DNA of 64,000 nucleotides. Source: Porphyromonas uenonis DSM 23387 = JCM 13868. Its GTDB lineage: Bacteria > Bacteroidota > Bacteroidia > Bacteroidales > Porphyromonadaceae. The DNA lies in assembly GCF_000482365.1 (NCBI RefSeq), contig NZ_KI535307.1, positions 62,001 through 126,000 on the forward strand. The letters are read 5' to 3'. How positions within the stretch are numbered: position 1 is the stretch's first letter; each line of letters opens with the position of its first letter. The position numbers and the translations under genes are program-made. The notes under the pieces were generated by a model that was not told the DNA's origin, ran no database searches, and saw nothing but the letters and a program-made list of their open reading frames with translations. Below are positions 4,137 to 37,280 of this stretch, in pieces.

Positions 4137-4229
4137 TTTCCAAAAGCTTTCCGGTATTGGAAAATGAAATTTCCAAGTGAGGAAACTTAGTTTTCCAAGG
4201 GAGGAAACTTTCTTTTCCACCGTTGGAAA
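4137..4229. repeat. 22-bp phased array of TTTCC-N6-GGAAA dyads
   Basis: Four dyads start at 4148, 4170, 4192 and 4214, exactly 22 bp apart. Each reads TTTCC, six variable bases, GGAAA. The loops differ (GGTATT, AAGTGA, AAGGGA, ACCGTT) while the arms are constant. An extra TTTCC half-site sits at 4137, 11 bp before the first. No supported gene overlaps it. The array lies in the 376-bp recG-hutH gap, which otherwise holds only the two hairpins listed separately. Confidence 0.75.
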
Positions 4230-6598: not shown

Positions 6599-7873
6599 CT
6601 AGACGCTGGGTGTGGGGGTCACGAGTTTGTTTTCGTAGACGGTACCCGCCTTGATGGTGGCTCGTACGAGGTTGACACCAAAGTGATAGGAGAGGAACTT
6701 GTACGAGGGGAAGCGTAGGAGCGCTAGGTCTCCCGCCTTGCCTACCTCGATGCTTCCTATTTGGTCAGCACGGCCGATGGCGGCTGCGCCATTGAGCGTG
6801 AGTGCTGTGACGGCCTCCTCGACGGTCATGCCCATATAGATGGTCGCTAGAGCGAACATGAGTGGGATGGAGGAGCTAAAGCAGCTTCCAGGATTGAGGT
6901 CGGAAGCAACGGCTACAGCGCAACCAGCATCGATCATGCGACGTGCTGGCGCATACTTTTCACCCAGGCTGAAAGCTGTACAGGGAAGGCAGGTAGCCAC
7001 GGTGTCGCTCTGAGCCAATGCTTGGATACCTTTGTCAGATATCTGTAGTAAGTGGTCTGCAGAGAGACAACCTAGCTCGGCTGCTAGCTCAGCGCCACCG
7101 AAGGAGACGATCTCGTCGGCGTGCATCTTGACCTTGAGGCCTAGCTCCTTAGCATGGGTCAAGAGGATGCGTGTCTGCTCATGGTCGAAGACTCCTTTCT
7201 CAGTGAAGATATCGCAACACTCTGCCAAGCCTCGCTCTACGACTACTGGCATGACCGTGTCACAGAGGTAGTGGATGAAGTCTGTGGAACGACCTTTGTA
7301 CTCGGGCGGTGTGTCGTGCGCTCCCATGAAGGTGGGGTAAAGGTCTATCGGGTGCTGCTTCTGTAGTGTCCGAATGACCTCTAGCTGCTTGATCTCCGTG
7401 TCGAGCTCCATGCCGTAACCACTCTTCGCCTCGACGGTGGTGACACCCATGGATAGCATGGCGTCTAGATGTGCAGAGGCGCGCTGAGTAAGTTCCTCAG
7501 CCGTTGCGCTACGGGTCGCCTTCATCGTGTTGGCTATACCACCGCCACGCTCCATGATGCTCATGTAGCTATCGCCCGCTAGTCGCCATTGGAACTCGTC
7601 CTCACGGTACCCACCGAAGATGAGGTGGGTGTGACTATCGACGAAGCCTGGCAGGACGCACCCGCCCTGAGCGTCATAAGCGACGCAGTCGGTGTGGTCT
7701 ACTTGCTCGGCTTCTTGCATAGTTCCTACGAAGGCTATTTTGCCTTGTCGTACGATGATGGCGGCAGGTCCCTCGATGACTCCGATCTGACGCATCGCCT
7801 CAGCGCCGTGCTGTGCGGTGGAGCCTGGACGAGTCACGATCTGACCGATATTGTATAGGTAGAGATTGGACAT
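6599..7873 (-). CDS. hutI: Imidazolonepropionase
   Basis: The 424-residue amidohydrolase opens imidazolonepropionate to N-formiminoglutamate. The metal-binding HTH motif (His81 and His83 in GFVDSHTHLIFGG) is present, as are the downstream KMHADE motif and the late SDLNPGS motif with its Asp. The length is normal for HutI. The start ATG (complement of 7871-7873) directly abuts a TTAGAGR heptad array, so the ribosome-binding region of this gene is made of repeat DNA. Translation may rely on coupling or on A/T-rich leader sequence, as is common in Bacteroidota. Confidence 0.95.
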   Translation of the reverse strand: MSNLYLYNIGQIVTRPGSTAQHGAEAMRQIGVIEGPAAIIVRQGKIAFVGTMQEAEQVDHTDCVAYDAQGGCVLPGFVDSHTHLIFGGYREDEFQWRLAGDSYMSIMERGGGIANTMKATRSATAEELTQRASAHLDAMLSMGVTTVEAKSGYGMELDTEIKQLEVIRTLQKQHPIDLYPTFMGAHDTPPEYKGRSTDFIHYLCDTVMPVVVERGLAECCDIFTEKGVFDHEQTRILLTHAKELGLKVKMHADEIVSFGGAELAAELGCLSADHLLQISDKGIQALAQSDTVATCLPCTAFSLGEKYAPARRMIDAGCAVAVASDLNPGSCFSSSIPLMFALATIYMGMTVEEAVTALTLNGAAAIGRADQIGSIEVGKAGDLALLRFPSYKFLSYHFGVNLVRATIKAGTVYENKLVTPTPSV

Positions 7874-7945
7874 TAGAGATTAGAGATTTAGAGGTTAGAC
7901 TTTAGAGGTTAGAAGTTAGAGGTTAGAGGTTAGACTTTAGAGATT
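7873..7945. repeat. TTAGARR heptad array, left flank of the four-helix-bundle gene
   Basis: About ten degenerate heptads (TTAGAGA, TTAGAGG, TTAGACT, TTAGAAG) run from the hutI start codon into the 3' end of the next gene. They supply that gene's stop codon and its last few residues. The mirror-image array lies at 8292-8327. Confidence 0.85.
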
Positions 7946-8291: not shown

Positions 8292-8327
8292 ATCTTCTAA
8301 TCTCTAATTTCTAACCTCTAATCTCTA
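8292..8327. repeat. TTAGARR heptad array, inverted, right flank of the four-helix-bundle gene
   Basis: On the plus strand it reads as YYTCTAA units (for example TCTAATCTCTAATTTCTAAC), the inverse orientation of the array at 7873-7945. It fills most of the 47 bp between the ftcD stop (8336) and the GTG start of the four-helix gene. Confidence 0.85.
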
Positions 8328-14917: not shown

Positions 14918-14941
14918 GAAAAATATTGCTATCCAATAAAG

Positions 14942-15015
14942 AGTTCCTCCGCTGGAACTAAAGAGTTCCTCCCTTGGAACTAAATAGTTCCAAGAGGGGA
15001 ACTGTTTTTGGAACT
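14942..15015. repeat. 22-bp phased array of AGTTCC-N6-GGAACT dyads
   Basis: Three dyads start at 14942, 14964 and 14986, exactly 22 bp apart, each with 6-bp arms AGTTCC/GGAACT and a 6-base centre (TCCGCT, TCCCTT, AAGAGG). A lone GGAACT half-site follows at 15010-15015. The spacers are AAAG and AAAT. It occupies the 349-bp gap between a secreted-protein gene and a lipoprotein gene, upstream of the promoter at 14910. No coding potential is visible. Confidence 0.8.
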
Positions 15016-15120
15016 CGTATCTACTACGAGTACAGCACGATACGAATTACAGATTAACGGAGAGAGACTATCAGACTAACCTTCTAATTCCACCCAGTAA
15101 TCACTTTGATGCGCAGAGAT

Positions 15121-17061: not shown

Positions 17062-17090
17062 GATTAGAGATTAGAGGTTAGATATTAGAG
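17062..17090. repeat. Short TTAGARR heptad array
   Basis: About four heptads (ATTAGAGATTAGAGGTTAGA and a variant) lie just 5' of the PD40 gene start, in the same plus-strand orientation as the array at 7873. No inverted partner is nearby. Confidence 0.75.
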
Positions 17091-17092
17091 GA

Positions 17093-23618: not shown

Positions 23619-23793
23619 TAGAGGTTAGAGATTAGAAGCTAGAGATTAGAGGTTAGAAGTTAGAGATTAGAAGTTAGAGGTTAGAAGTTAGGCCCTAGAG
23701 GCACTAGGAGCACTAGAAGCACTAGTGTCACTAGAAACACTAGCCCCCTCTAACCTCTAACTTCTAATCTCTAACTTCTAACCTCTAATCTCT
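23619..23793. repeat. 45-bp perfect inverted repeat built of TTAGARR heptads, with CACTAG repeats in the loop
   Basis: The left arm 23641-23685 and right arm 23749-23793 are exact reverse complements over 45 bp, and each is made of TTAGARR heptads. More heptads precede the left arm. The 63-nt loop holds five CACTAG words spaced 9-12 bp apart. It fills most of the 290-bp gap between the divergent DUF2723 and LysE genes, with a -7 box just outside each end. Confidence 0.92.
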
Positions 23794-25609: not shown

Positions 25610-25738
25610 ACTCCTGACTTATAAGTCAAAGCAGTGGCGAAAACCTAGAGTTTAGCCTGACAAATTAAGAGCCACCGAGGAAATCGGAAATTCCTCCGTA
25701 GTTATTTTCCAGTATGACGGGCATGTCATACGAGAAAA

Positions 25739-25778
25739 GGAGACCGCCCTCCAATCAGTGAGCGGTCTCCTTTTTGTT
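25739..25778 (+). terminator. Rho-independent terminator after the YeiH-type gene
   Basis: The arms GGAGACCGC (25739-25747) and GCGGTCTCC (25762-25770) form a perfect 9-bp stem followed by TTTTTGTTTT. Two more short hairpins lie just upstream (25677-25696 and 25712-25731). Confidence 0.85.
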
Positions 25779-25799
25779 TTGTTGCGTGACGTTGATCGA

Positions 25800-27242
25800 C
25801 TAAGCGCCGTGGAAGAGGTACTCAGCCTGTATGTCGCGGGTCATCTGCGTGAAGAGCTCCTCGATCAGCGCATCAGCCACCTCGAGGGCGCGCCACAAGA
25901 TGGCGTCCGACTCCTCCTGTAGCATATCTTGAGCTGCGTGTGGCATCCCCTTGTCCAGCTTATGACAGTAGCGACGCTGTATCTCCTCAATGCGCTCGTC
26001 GCACTCCAGCTCGAAGGCGTGGTAGCGCTCCTTGATCAGCGGTGCGTACTTATTATAGTTGGTCATACCGAGCACCTGCACCTTACGGAAGGTCCAGTAG
26101 GCTGACTCCTGTGAGGACTCTCCCCCACCCTTGGTATAAGGCTCGGGATAGGAGGTCACACCCTGGAAGAGCGGTACGAAGAGACCTAGGTCTGCCATAC
26201 CCAAGCAAACGTGGTTGATACGCCCGACGGCTACGGGTAGCTTAGGCTGCACCTGTAGGATATGCGTCTGCGTGGTACGGAAGATGGAGACTGGGCGGTA
26301 CACCTCGTGCGGATTGCTGTGGAGGTAAGGATCATGCTCCGTGCCGTCGTAGTGGAAGCGGAAAGCATGGCGCATAGCCTCCATCGTGATTGGCTTCTCA
26401 GCCTTAGCATAGACAGGGAAGTCGTTGACAGCTACATCCTGCTTCATCGCGGGGGTAAACATCTGCTGGAGTCCCCAGACACGTGGATAGTTGTACGTAG
26501 TGTCTAGCTCCACGTCGCGTATGTAAGCTTTGTGGAAGTCAAAGGCACCCTCCTTAGGATCATACAGCCCGTGCTCCTGGGCAAACTCGATCAGGTCGCT
26601 GGATGCCATAAAGTGCTCCTTGTCCTTGGGATCATACTGGCGGAAGCGGCTCTGATTGCCCGTGACGAAGTATTGCTCCTCGGGGATACGACAAGCTAGC
26701 CAGCGATGTCCCGAAGCGGTCTCGAGATACCATATTTCATCGCTATCAACGAAGCCGATGCCAAAGCCCTCGCTGACACCATACTCCTCGATGAGCTTGC
26801 CGAGGCGCTCTACGCCTTCGCGAGCTGTGTGGATGTAGGGGAGGACGATGTTGAAGACTGAGTTCTCAGCCACACCATTCTCCACAAGAGGATCGACAGC
26901 CAGTGCTGCATCGCTACTAAAGATAGACTCGGTGGCGCTCATGCCGACGCCGGACTCGTTGAAGCCTGCGCTTCCCCAGTGTCCTGGCAGATGATAAGGT
27001 GGCAGCGCCGAGTAGCTCTGCGCATTGCCGGGCAGATCGCAGGCGAAGGGGCTATCGAATGCGTCAAAGCGCATAGGATCGACCGAGCCAGGCTCGCCGG
27101 GACGGTGGATGGTGAGGTTCTTGGCAAACATAGCGTCCCAATCCTCTGAGCGCGCTACGATACGTGATCCATCAGCACTCATCTGACTGCCGACGATGAT
27201 GGTCGTACACTCAGAGGGTAGATTAGATTTTTTCTTGTTCAT
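25800..27242 (-). CDS. C69 family dipeptidase
   Basis: This 480-residue N-terminal-nucleophile hydrolase of peptidase family C69 has Cys12 in ECTTIIVGSQMSADGS as the likely catalytic residue after removal of a short propeptide. The SRIVARSEDWD motif and the AENSVFNIVLPYIHTARE segment follow the family pattern. It cleaves dipeptides, in keeping with the peptide-based metabolism of Porphyromonas. It stands alone on the minus strand with a good promoter 33 bp upstream. No N-terminal signal peptide is evident. Confidence 0.9.
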   Translation of the reverse strand: MNKKKSNLPSECTTIIVGSQMSADGSRIVARSEDWDAMFAKNLTIHRPGEPGSVDPMRFDAFDSPFACDLPGNAQSYSALPPYHLPGHWGSAGFNESGVGMSATESIFSSDAALAVDPLVENGVAENSVFNIVLPYIHTAREGVERLGKLIEEYGVSEGFGIGFVDSDEIWYLETASGHRWLACRIPEEQYFVTGNQSRFRQYDPKDKEHFMASSDLIEFAQEHGLYDPKEGAFDFHKAYIRDVELDTTYNYPRVWGLQQMFTPAMKQDVAVNDFPVYAKAEKPITMEAMRHAFRFHYDGTEHDPYLHSNPHEVYRPVSIFRTTQTHILQVQPKLPVAVGRINHVCLGMADLGLFVPLFQGVTSYPEPYTKGGGESSQESAYWTFRKVQVLGMTNYNKYAPLIKERYHAFELECDERIEEIQRRYCHKLDKGMPHAAQDMLQEESDAILWRALEVADALIEELFTQMTRDIQAEYLFHGA

Positions 27243-27473: not shown

Positions 27474-27550
27474 GGTCCTATAGCTCAGTTGGTTAGAGCA
27501 CCTGACTCATAATCAGGGAGTCCTTGGTTCAAGCCCAAGTGGGACCACCA
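27474..27550 (+). tRNA. tRNA with CAU anticodon (tRNA-Ile2 or tRNA-Met)
   Basis: 77 nt with encoded CCA. The acceptor stem is GGTCCTA/TGGGACC, the D arm AGCTC...AGAGC, the anticodon stem CCTGA/TCAGG with loop CTCATAA (CAU at the centre), and the T arm CTTGG/CCAAG with loop TTCAAGC. The first pair is G-C, which excludes the usual initiator mismatch. C4-G69 and C5-G68 are the pairs used by TilS to pick tRNA-Ile2, so a lysidine-modified isoleucine tRNA reading AUA is favoured over elongator Met, though sequence alone does not settle it. Confidence 0.93.
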
Positions 27551-27619: not shown

Positions 27620-27643
27620 ACAAGGGTACAGAGTGTGAGCGGT

Positions 27644-28021
27644 CAGGGCTGACGCATGATAGCCAGCCGTCTAGGAGCGGCATATGACGATAACTAGGGA
27701 TGTGCTGTTCGACCACCGCTACAGAGGGTTCGAGCATTACTACAGAGAGGCTACGGATCCTCTCTGATTATACCTTTCTTCCGAAGAATTGAATTCCTAC
27801 CTAGGAATTTGCCAAATAGCTACCTAGAAATTGGCCCAATTCCTACCTAGGAAATAAAAAATTCTTCGGAGGAATCAAATGAAACTTCGGAAGAATCAAA
27901 AAATAAGTCCGAAGAATTTGGCCATTTTCTAGGTAGCAAATCAAAAATATCTACGGAGGAATTTTGCCATTTCCTAGGTAGGAATTGAAATGAGCTCTTT
28001 TTTTATCATGCGTCAGCCCTG
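27644..28021. mobile_element. MITE-like element with 18-bp inverted repeats and an internal dyad array
   Basis: The 378-bp element is bounded by CAGGGCTGACGCATGATA at 27644-27661 and its exact reverse complement at 28004-28021. The 10 bp TGTGAGCGGT is repeated directly outside both ends (27634-27643 and 28022-28031), as expected for a target-site duplication. It contains no ORF of note. Its right half (about 27779-27989) is a degenerate array of TTCC-N6-GGAA-type dyads, several with TACCTA/TAGGTA or TTCGGA/TACGGA centres. It looks like a non-autonomous transposon mobilised by a transposase elsewhere; no such transposase is in the window. Confidence 0.8.
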
Positions 28022-28029
28022 TGTGAGCG

Positions 28030-28060
28030 GTTGCGCCAATCGCTATTTTCAGTACTTTTG
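28030..28060 (+). promoter_or_regulatory. Promoter of the beta-helix lipoprotein gene
   Basis: GTTG (28030-28033), 19 bp, TACTTTTG (28053-28060). The -33 region touches the right target duplication of the MITE-like element. The start codon is at 28142. Confidence 0.55.
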
Positions 28061-28141: not shown

Positions 28142-29668
28142 ATGAACGAAATAAGAAGATCTATCAGAGCTCTGTCACGACTGACCAGCATAGCACTCTG
28201 CGCAGCTCTCTTGCTGGTGGCGTGCGTGCGGTCGCCCTGGCAGTATGACCGCTCGGAGGGTAGCCAGCCCCACCTCTCCGTTGACACGATACGACTGGAC
28301 ACGCTCTACAGCGCGCTCTCCTCGGCGACCCACGTGGCGATGATCTACAACCCGCACGACCATCCGCTACTCCTCGATGAGGTGTCACTCCTGAGCGGTG
28401 GCAATAAGGGGTACCGCATCAACGTGGACGGATGTAGTGGCTCGGAGATACGAGATGTGACGCTGCCTCCGCGTGATAGCATCTTTGTCTTTGTGGAGGC
28501 GACCTTTACGGCGGGAGACTCAGACCTGCCGACACTGGTGACCGATTCGCTCCTGTGGCGCTGCAATGGGGTCACGCACTATACGCGCATCGAGGGTTAT
28601 CGGCAAAACGTCTCTACCCTATCCGCCAACTGGCACATAACAAAGGACACCCTCTGGCGTAGCGAGCGTCCTTACCTAATAACCGACAGCATCACGATAG
28701 AGCCAGGCGCGCGGCTAACGATCGCCGAAGGGGGGCACCTGTTACTGCCTCAAGGGGGGCGGATCATCGTGCGAGGTGCTTTGACACTGGCGGGATCGGC
28801 GGCTAGTCCCATCCTCATAGAGGGTGTACGACGAGACAATCTCACGACAGATGTCTCCTATCGCTTGTTACCGAATCAGTGGGACTACATACAATTTACG
28901 GCAGAGAGCCAGGACAATGAGATACGCTATACGACCATTCGCAATGGATGTGAAGGGGTAACCTTTGCCCCGGGAAATGATCCTCTAGCGAAGCGGTTGC
29001 TCCTAGAGTCAAGCACCATCACCAATATGGGCGGGGATGGCTTGACCCTCGCAGGAGGTAGCTATACGCTACGAAACAGCGAGCTAAGCAATGTGGGTGG
29101 CTCCTGCCTATCCATGCGAAAAGCTACCGTACAGGCAGAGCAGATGACGGTGGTGTGCGACTATTTATTTGACCACAGGCGCAGCCCTGTACTCTATGTA
29201 GGTAAGGAGGGTAAGCTACAGATGATCAATAGCATCGTGGATGGTAGGCAGACGATTGCACTACAGAGCGATACGCTGCGTCGCTCAGGCGAACTAGCGT
29301 GGCACCCCTCGGATCAGACGCAACTGGATCTGCAGCATTGCTACCTACGATTGGAGCAGGACTCTATCGTGGCTAAGCAACTCGTTGATGAGCTTTTCCC
29401 TACCTGTCATCGAGCCACTGTCCCCTTTGTGGATAGTTACTGGATGCTGGGCAAGGATTACAAGGATCGTAGCAATAGACAGGCTAAGTATCACTTTCAC
29501 TTTGACTTTCACCCTGTAGAGACAGCTGGTCTGCAAGAGCTTTCGCCTTTAGCTCCTGCGGTATGCGGCCTGGATCGTACGGGTATGCCCCGACGCAAGA
29601 ACAAGCTGGGAGGCTACACCGTAGGCGCTTACGAAGCTGTCGCACCGCCAAAGGATAAGAAGCCGTAA
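28142..29668 (+). CDS. Surface or periplasmic lipoprotein with right-handed beta-helix repeats
   Basis: The 508-residue lipoprotein has the signal TSIALCAALLLVAC with the lipid-bearing Cys near residue 28. The central third shows short repeating beta turns typical of parallel beta helices (for example ITNMGGDGLTLAGGSYTLRN followed by similar rungs). Homologues in Bacteroidota are common but uncharacterised. I start at the ATG at 28142, which gives a compact lipoprotein signal; an upstream in-frame TTG at 28091 would add 17 polar residues before it. It is a single gene with a promoter at 28030-28060. Confidence 0.8.
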   Translation: MNEIRRSIRALSRLTSIALCAALLLVACVRSPWQYDRSEGSQPHLSVDTIRLDTLYSALSSATHVAMIYNPHDHPLLLDEVSLLSGGNKGYRINVDGCSGSEIRDVTLPPRDSIFVFVEATFTAGDSDLPTLVTDSLLWRCNGVTHYTRIEGYRQNVSTLSANWHITKDTLWRSERPYLITDSITIEPGARLTIAEGGHLLLPQGGRIIVRGALTLAGSAASPILIEGVRRDNLTTDVSYRLLPNQWDYIQFTAESQDNEIRYTTIRNGCEGVTFAPGNDPLAKRLLLESSTITNMGGDGLTLAGGSYTLRNSELSNVGGSCLSMRKATVQAEQMTVVCDYLFDHRRSPVLYVGKEGKLQMINSIVDGRQTIALQSDTLRRSGELAWHPSDQTQLDLQHCYLRLEQDSIVAKQLVDELFPTCHRATVPFVDSYWMLGKDYKDRSNRQAKYHFHFDFHPVETAGLQELSPLAPAVCGLDRTGMPRRKNKLGGYTVGAYEAVAPPKDKKP

Positions 29669-37011: not shown

Positions 37012-37059
37012 GTTTTCTTCGCTTGGTGACATTCGTGGGCTAGATCCCAATTTATCCGA

Positions 37060-37206
37060 CTTTCTACGGAGGAAATTCTAATTCTCCAGGGAGCTATTTG
37101 AAAACTCCTCCGAAGTTTCATTTCATTCTTCCGAAGTTTCATTTCAAACTTCGGAGGAAATACTGATTTGCCACCGAACAATTTGAGGATTTCTTCGGAG
37201 GAATTG
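37060..37206. repeat. Degenerate array of TTC/GGA dyads between tamL and the metal-uptake locus
   Basis: At least six dyads of the same style as the other arrays: TTTC-TACGGA-GGAAA (37070-37084), AAACT-CCTCCGA-AGTTT, AAACTTCGGAGGAAAT and ATTTC-TTCGGA-GGAATT at the right end. Spacing is less regular here. The 315-bp gap holds nothing else except the promoter at 37281-37311. No terminal inverted repeats were found. Confidence 0.65.
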
Positions 37207-37280
37207 GCTTTTCGGGGGACACCGTAAGGCACCTCGACTCTTCAAATCCAATTTGTCGCATTAAATTTGAACAGGCATCT

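Follow-up and report, generated by a model that had tools for sequence, protein, structure and literature searches.

How did a 378-bp non-coding segment come to lie between a tRNA-Met gene and the next gene of Porphyromonas uenonis DSM 23387 = JCM 13868, and what are the palindromes that it carries? We analysed 64,000 nt of this genome (assembly GCF_000482365.1, contig NZ_KI535307.1, positions 62,001 to 126,000), referred to below as the window, whose coordinates are used throughout. The segment has the hallmarks of a miniature inverted-repeat transposable element (MITE): it is short and non-coding, has terminal inverted repeats (TIRs) and a target site duplication (TSD) of fixed length, exists in dispersed copies, and is polymorphic for insertion. 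Because it shares its TIR and its 10-bp TSD with insertion sequences (ISs) of the ISAs1 family, the window element very probably belongs to the ISAs1 group as a non-autonomous MITE. An earlier note on this DNA, made from the letters alone, had described 18-bp inverted ends, a 10-bp duplication, 378 bp without an open reading frame (ORF), and internal dyads, and this description was borne out. The element occupies 27644–28021, TIRs included; its ends match at 18 of 18 positions as an inverted repeat of CAGGGCTGACGCATGATA, for which 0.01 matches (≤3 mismatches) are expected by chance in the window, and TGTGAGCGGT stands on either side. No credible ORF lies within the element, two short minus-strand ORFs in the ORF listing merely overlapping its right edge. 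Matches to the palindrome TTCCTACCTAGGAA with three mismatches or fewer number 21 in the window against 3.6 expected, and they cluster in the element. Its parts are as follows, family A being the group of copies to which it belongs.

27634–27643, no strand: left TSD, TGTGAGCGGT (sequence; present once at the empty site of P. uenonis 60-3)
27644–27661, plus strand: left TIR, CAGGGCTGACGCATGATA (sequence; genome matches of its 17-mer)
27662–27775, no strand: left subterminal region, conserved among family A copies (alignment of 22 copies)
27776–27853, no strand: left dyads, TTCTTCCGAAGAA and then TTCCTACCTAGGAA-type palindrome units with a 23-bp period (sequence)
27856–27919, no strand: core units, GAATCAAATGAAACTTCGGA on the given strand, with a 21-bp period (conserved in five related genomes)
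27920–27989, no strand: right dyads TTTCTAGGTAGCAAA, TATCTACGGAGGAA and TTCCTAGGTAGGAA (sequence)
28004–28021, minus strand: right TIR (sequence)
28022–28031, no strand: right TSD, TGTGAGCGGT (sequence; single copy at the empty site)

The earlier note had proposed searching for other genomic copies of the terminus, for a strain with an empty site containing a single TGTGAGCGGT, and for a transposase gene with the same termini on both sides; all of these exist. A 17-mer of the terminus has 98 matches in the genome (≤2 mismatches), compared to 3 for a reversed control. Pairing of ends yields 37 copies that are 175–534 bp long, 17 of which have a TSD of exactly 10 bp (11 identical, 6 with one mismatch), whereas 10-bp duplications occur in 0 of 1,332 mismatched flank pairs used as a control; duplications of 7–9 or 11–13 bp were not found among the 37 paired copies. 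At the orthologous site in the sister species P. uenonis 60-3 there is no element, only one TGTGAGCGGT between flanks that are about 93–95% identical to those in the window. The corresponding region downstream of the tRNA in another genome, G017, holds other insertions, and is therefore uninformative on the empty site. Two further sites are also polymorphic: a second family A site (L072, TSD CGAAGGAGGT) lacks the element in three relatives, among them G017, whose site is nearly intact, and a P. uenonis relative lacks the element at a family B site (L056, TSD TCGCTTGAAG). Together, these comparisons strongly suggest that the element is a real MITE of the ISAs1 group whose insertion at the window locus postdates the split from P. 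uenonis 60-3.

The transposase gene within the same ends belongs to the ISAs1 family. In genome G003, the MITE ends bound a 1209-bp IS with TSD TAGAAAACGC, and its 384-amino-acid protein is an ISAs1 transposase (NF033564, E=4e-82; PF13808 and PF01609). Versions of about 1320 bp, with TSDs, are found in P. levii and Porphyromonas sp. HMSC065F10; G017 has several copies of 1.3 kb; and a metagenome-assembled genome of Ignavibacteriae has a transposase, assigned to ISAs1 by resemblance, between the same 18-bp ends and a 10-bp TSD, GTGCTCTCCT, read from the sequence. The termini of the MITE are likewise seen on ISAs1 ISs at L104, L113, L114, L131 and L218, and the TSD length is 10 bp for IS and MITE alike. 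A literature search on ISAs1 together with terminal inverted repeats and target site duplications returned no match. The IS is intact in relatives; the draft genome of the host has IS fragments at contig ends only (both ends of contig C4 and an end of C14), where the TIR leads directly into the transposase frame or its leader. The middle of the IS is absent from the host assembly, as one would expect of a collapsed repeat. Both ends of C4, a 228-kb contig of the host assembly (G000; L060 and L067), enter the ISAs1 element with an identical flank, ATCCCCCCGA, as though the contig's two ends joined. We infer that the MITE is mobilised in trans by ISAs1 ISs. We propose that the transposase made by full-length IS copies recognises the 18-bp termini of the MITE, that a 10-bp staggered cut at insertion would generate the 10-bp duplication, and that the window copy, once the lineage had separated from P. 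uenonis 60-3, would have landed downstream of the tRNA-Met terminator and upstream of the next gene's promoter.

The same ends enclose at least two unrelated interiors, those of family A (about 355–380 bp), to which the window copy belongs, and of family B (about 385 bp), both of which bear palindromes at 21–23-bp spacing. Identity between the window copy and the full-length copies nearest to it is about 85%, such that the family does not stem from one recent burst. Further array-bearing elements with these ends occur in other species, those in G017, G018 and G020 having CCACGTGG dyads. Copies L092 and L095 hold sequence of the GAGACTGTTGCA...TGCAACAGTCTC type, like the MITEPgRS/IS5 ends of P. 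gingivalis, and appear to be nested or chimeric insertions. Seven-base tandem repeats of the TTAGAGG/TTAGAGA type (window 7860–7945, 8296–8327, 17062–17091 and 23619–23793; L048 and L092) also border several MITE copies. Lastly, Prevotella bivia DSM 20514 (L246, 950–1240) has a related array with a TCTTCCGAAGTTTCATTTC core, flanked by Prevotella-like genes; its left TIR is intact and no right TIR is present, which suggests transfer between co-resident genera.

In family A, the array consists of a core of 21-bp units (TTCCGAAGTTTCATTTGA), with 23-bp units bearing TTCCTACCTAGGAA-type palindromes on both sides. Copies vary by whole units, by deletion of the core (L034), and by inversion of the core (L081), as judged from the 22-copy alignment; core matches number 60–210 in each of five species' genomes. 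Where the first arm lies, perfect 6-bp palindromic arms are present at 57 of 96 loci, for the most part with a single fixed offset, compared to 1.8% in shuffles; the palindrome at this position differs between lineages. Dyad pairing with the centre fixed is 66%, and at most 33% when the centre is slid.

The earlier note held that the dyads have the same design as arrays elsewhere in the window, and suggested that small non-autonomous elements, either being the arrays or containing them, had spread them. Each statement survives in part. The likeness extends to the core sequence for the following array, and only to a 22-bp palindrome layout for those at 4159–4219 and 14937–15018.

37045–37215, no strand: related array that shares the element's core sequence but lacks a clear TIR; probably a decayed MITE copy (sequence comparison)

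Spread with the element is upheld for array families with this core: 18 of the 44 arrays without an end at ≤2 mismatches (about 41%) have a degenerate one at ≤5 mismatches, compared to 1–4 of 44 in controls, and many arrays lacking clear ends are, on this sign, decayed MITEs. It is not upheld for arrays of the 14937 type, in which the tail is one-sided and no TIR can be seen. These make up a second repeat family (window 14937–15060; L310–L329) of 22-bp GTTCC-N6-GGAAC units, with 107 genome matches, a conserved tail on one side (GGAACTCGTAT...CAGCACGATAC), and no visible TIRs. Single arrays at L315 and L317 mix TTTCC-N6-GGAAA, ATCCCT...AGGGAT, GTTCC-N6-GGAAC and TTCCTACCTAGGAA, mostly in a 22-bp register. 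In three sister-genus genomes (L155, L156 and L157; about 1350–1650), the sole core-pattern arrays found sit in a conjugative element, with a relaxase-like gene on one side and a TraG/MobC-like coupling gene on the other. Between convergent genes, a P. uenonis relative has a full array (L179) where the window (25610–25800) has a two-unit remnant; thus, arrays are also lost by deletion.

The element occupies the gap between the upstream and downstream features listed here.

27474–27550, plus strand: tRNA-Met(CAT), upstream neighbour (tRNA call)
28031–28060, plus strand: putative Bacteroidetes-type promoter match of the downstream gene, TTG-N19-TACTTTTG (pattern scan; identical sequence at the empty site)
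28142–29668, plus strand: downstream gene with a lipoprotein-like N-terminus (MNEIRRSIRALSRLTSIALCAALLLVAC...), its likely start codon being the ATG at 28142 (ORF listing from 28091; ATG read from the sequence)

A hairpin followed by a T-run, read from the sequence, lies 3' of tRNA-Met. The promoter match begins at 28031, the final base of the right TSD, in agreement with the earlier statement that the right end touches the −33 region. It is possible, although we doubt it, that the element changes expression of the downstream gene through the new sequence placed upstream of the −33 box. Such an effect would fit with the abutting TSD, and with the bidirectional promoter activity reported for segments of BrickBuilt, a MITE/minisatellite of P. 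gingivalis (Klein et al., 2015, PMC4596501). By contrast, the −33 and −7 boxes are the same at the filled site as at the empty site, the −33 box being intact because the TSD restores it, and a pattern scan found no consensus Bacteroidetes promoter inside the element. That the inverted ends and direct repeats reflect chance or an assembly artefact is extremely improbable; we found no point in favour of this idea, which is refuted by the 98 terminus matches, the TSD statistics and the empty sites.

From copy to copy, the array gains and loses units, exchanges them and inverts them, for which slippage and recombination would be the simplest route. We propose that either its own structure or template-switch copying may keep it symmetrical, rather than one sequence-specific binding protein. 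We favour, at roughly even chances, the array being mainly a passenger module of the MITE, the reason for palindrome persistence being one that we infer. Several observations weigh against our account of the MITE and its passenger. The core unit hardly varies from one species to another, which is not what neutral drift predicts. Covariation inside the dyads is suggestive, not strong: double-sided changes number 28, compared to 7–20 in slid controls, a modest excess. The TIR is all that MITE and IS have in common, with no similarity between their interiors (z about −0.8; no tblastn hit), such that a simple internal deletion of this IS is unsupported, and was rejected, as the origin of the MITE. 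Moreover, a working transposase in the host genome has to be presumed, the IS not being assembled whole there. It is conceivable, but rather unlikely, that the 21–23-bp palindrome ladder forms an independent module that keeps its register and dyad symmetry while its sequence is free to change, and that has several carriers; these would tentatively include at least two ISAs1-MITE interiors, the mobilisation region of a conjugative element, and TIR-less dispersal. An alternative to the passenger reading that we also consider unlikely is that the array offers a binding platform to a homodimeric DNA-binding protein of the host, with the MITE spreading sites that organise the chromosome or regulate neighbouring genes. 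The 21–23-bp register, which puts palindromes two helical turns apart, the perfect palindromes, and the conservation of the core in five species are all consistent with binding. Nonetheless, CTACCTAG, CACGTG, CTCCGTGGAG and GTTCC-N6-GGAAC coexist in one genome, and sometimes in one array, so a single binding specificity does not explain the arrays; their positions, moreover, track intergenic base pairs, with no 3'-end bias. A role as RNA, in which a long hairpin made by transcription from neighbouring genes would end transcription or shield 3' ends in the manner of BIME/REP or ERIC, seems improbable. The RNA fold of the whole element is far stronger than that of shuffles (z=−11.2; z=−10.4 for a family B copy), but a strong fold is expected of any palindromic array. 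Arrays lie between tandem, divergent and convergent genes in the ratio 18/10/4, compared to 33.1/17.8/8.0 kb of intergenic space, with gene context taken from a crude ORF caller and 5 arrays placed "inside" probably spurious ORFs; with no bias to convergent genes, a transcription-terminator role was rejected. Pairing between left and right arms is no better within a copy than from one copy to another (arm swap, p=0.57), which rejects selection for a long hairpin between the two arms. Lastly, no Rfam family reaches threshold over the element; besides tRNA, the only matches were sub-threshold plant microRNA and plastid models, as would be expected of a hairpin.

With these data, a high-copy repeat of the P. 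uenonis group is assigned to a named transposon family. Mobilisation of a MITE by ISAs1 can now be tested, given that the transposase is likely active, that the empty site is clean, and that a second interior has the same ends. The palindrome ladders, which combine variable arms with an almost constant core, are present in five species and have a described cousin in BrickBuilt; explaining them could reveal what maintains such repeats in bacterial genomes. If the ladder were indeed its own module, selection or a copying mechanism would act on hairpin structure rather than on sequence.

Among known systems, ISAs1-family ISs (NF033564; PF13808 and PF01609) have a terminus, CAGGGCTGACGCATTATA, that is one base off the end of the window MITE and exact in other MITE copies, and they make the same 10-bp target duplication; they differ in being 1.2–1.3 kb long, in encoding a 375–384-amino-acid transposase, and in lacking a palindrome array. 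The BOX elements of Streptococcus pneumoniae have a modular design like that of the element described here, in which internal dyad units, variable in number, are framed by fixed end modules, although their sequence, unit size and mobilising transposase are not known to be related. MITEPgRS/MITE464, MITE239, MITE293 and MITE700 of P. gingivalis are likewise small non-autonomous elements of the genus, with listed TIRs (GAGACTGTTGCA, ACGTGAGTTCGATA and ACGTCATTCGA) unlike that of our element (PMC4596501). BrickBuilt has IS5-type ends (GAGACCTTTGCA), 2–5-bp duplications and 19 copies (PMC4596501), whereas the element here has ISAs1-type ends, 10-bp duplications, dozens of copies, and units that are individually palindromic; given that the TIRs differ, we rejected an origin from IS5-type MITEs or BrickBuilt. 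Nonetheless, BrickBuilt, likened here by design and without comparison of unit sequences, is the nearest described relative of the array, and in both systems copies with intact ends exist alongside copies without them.
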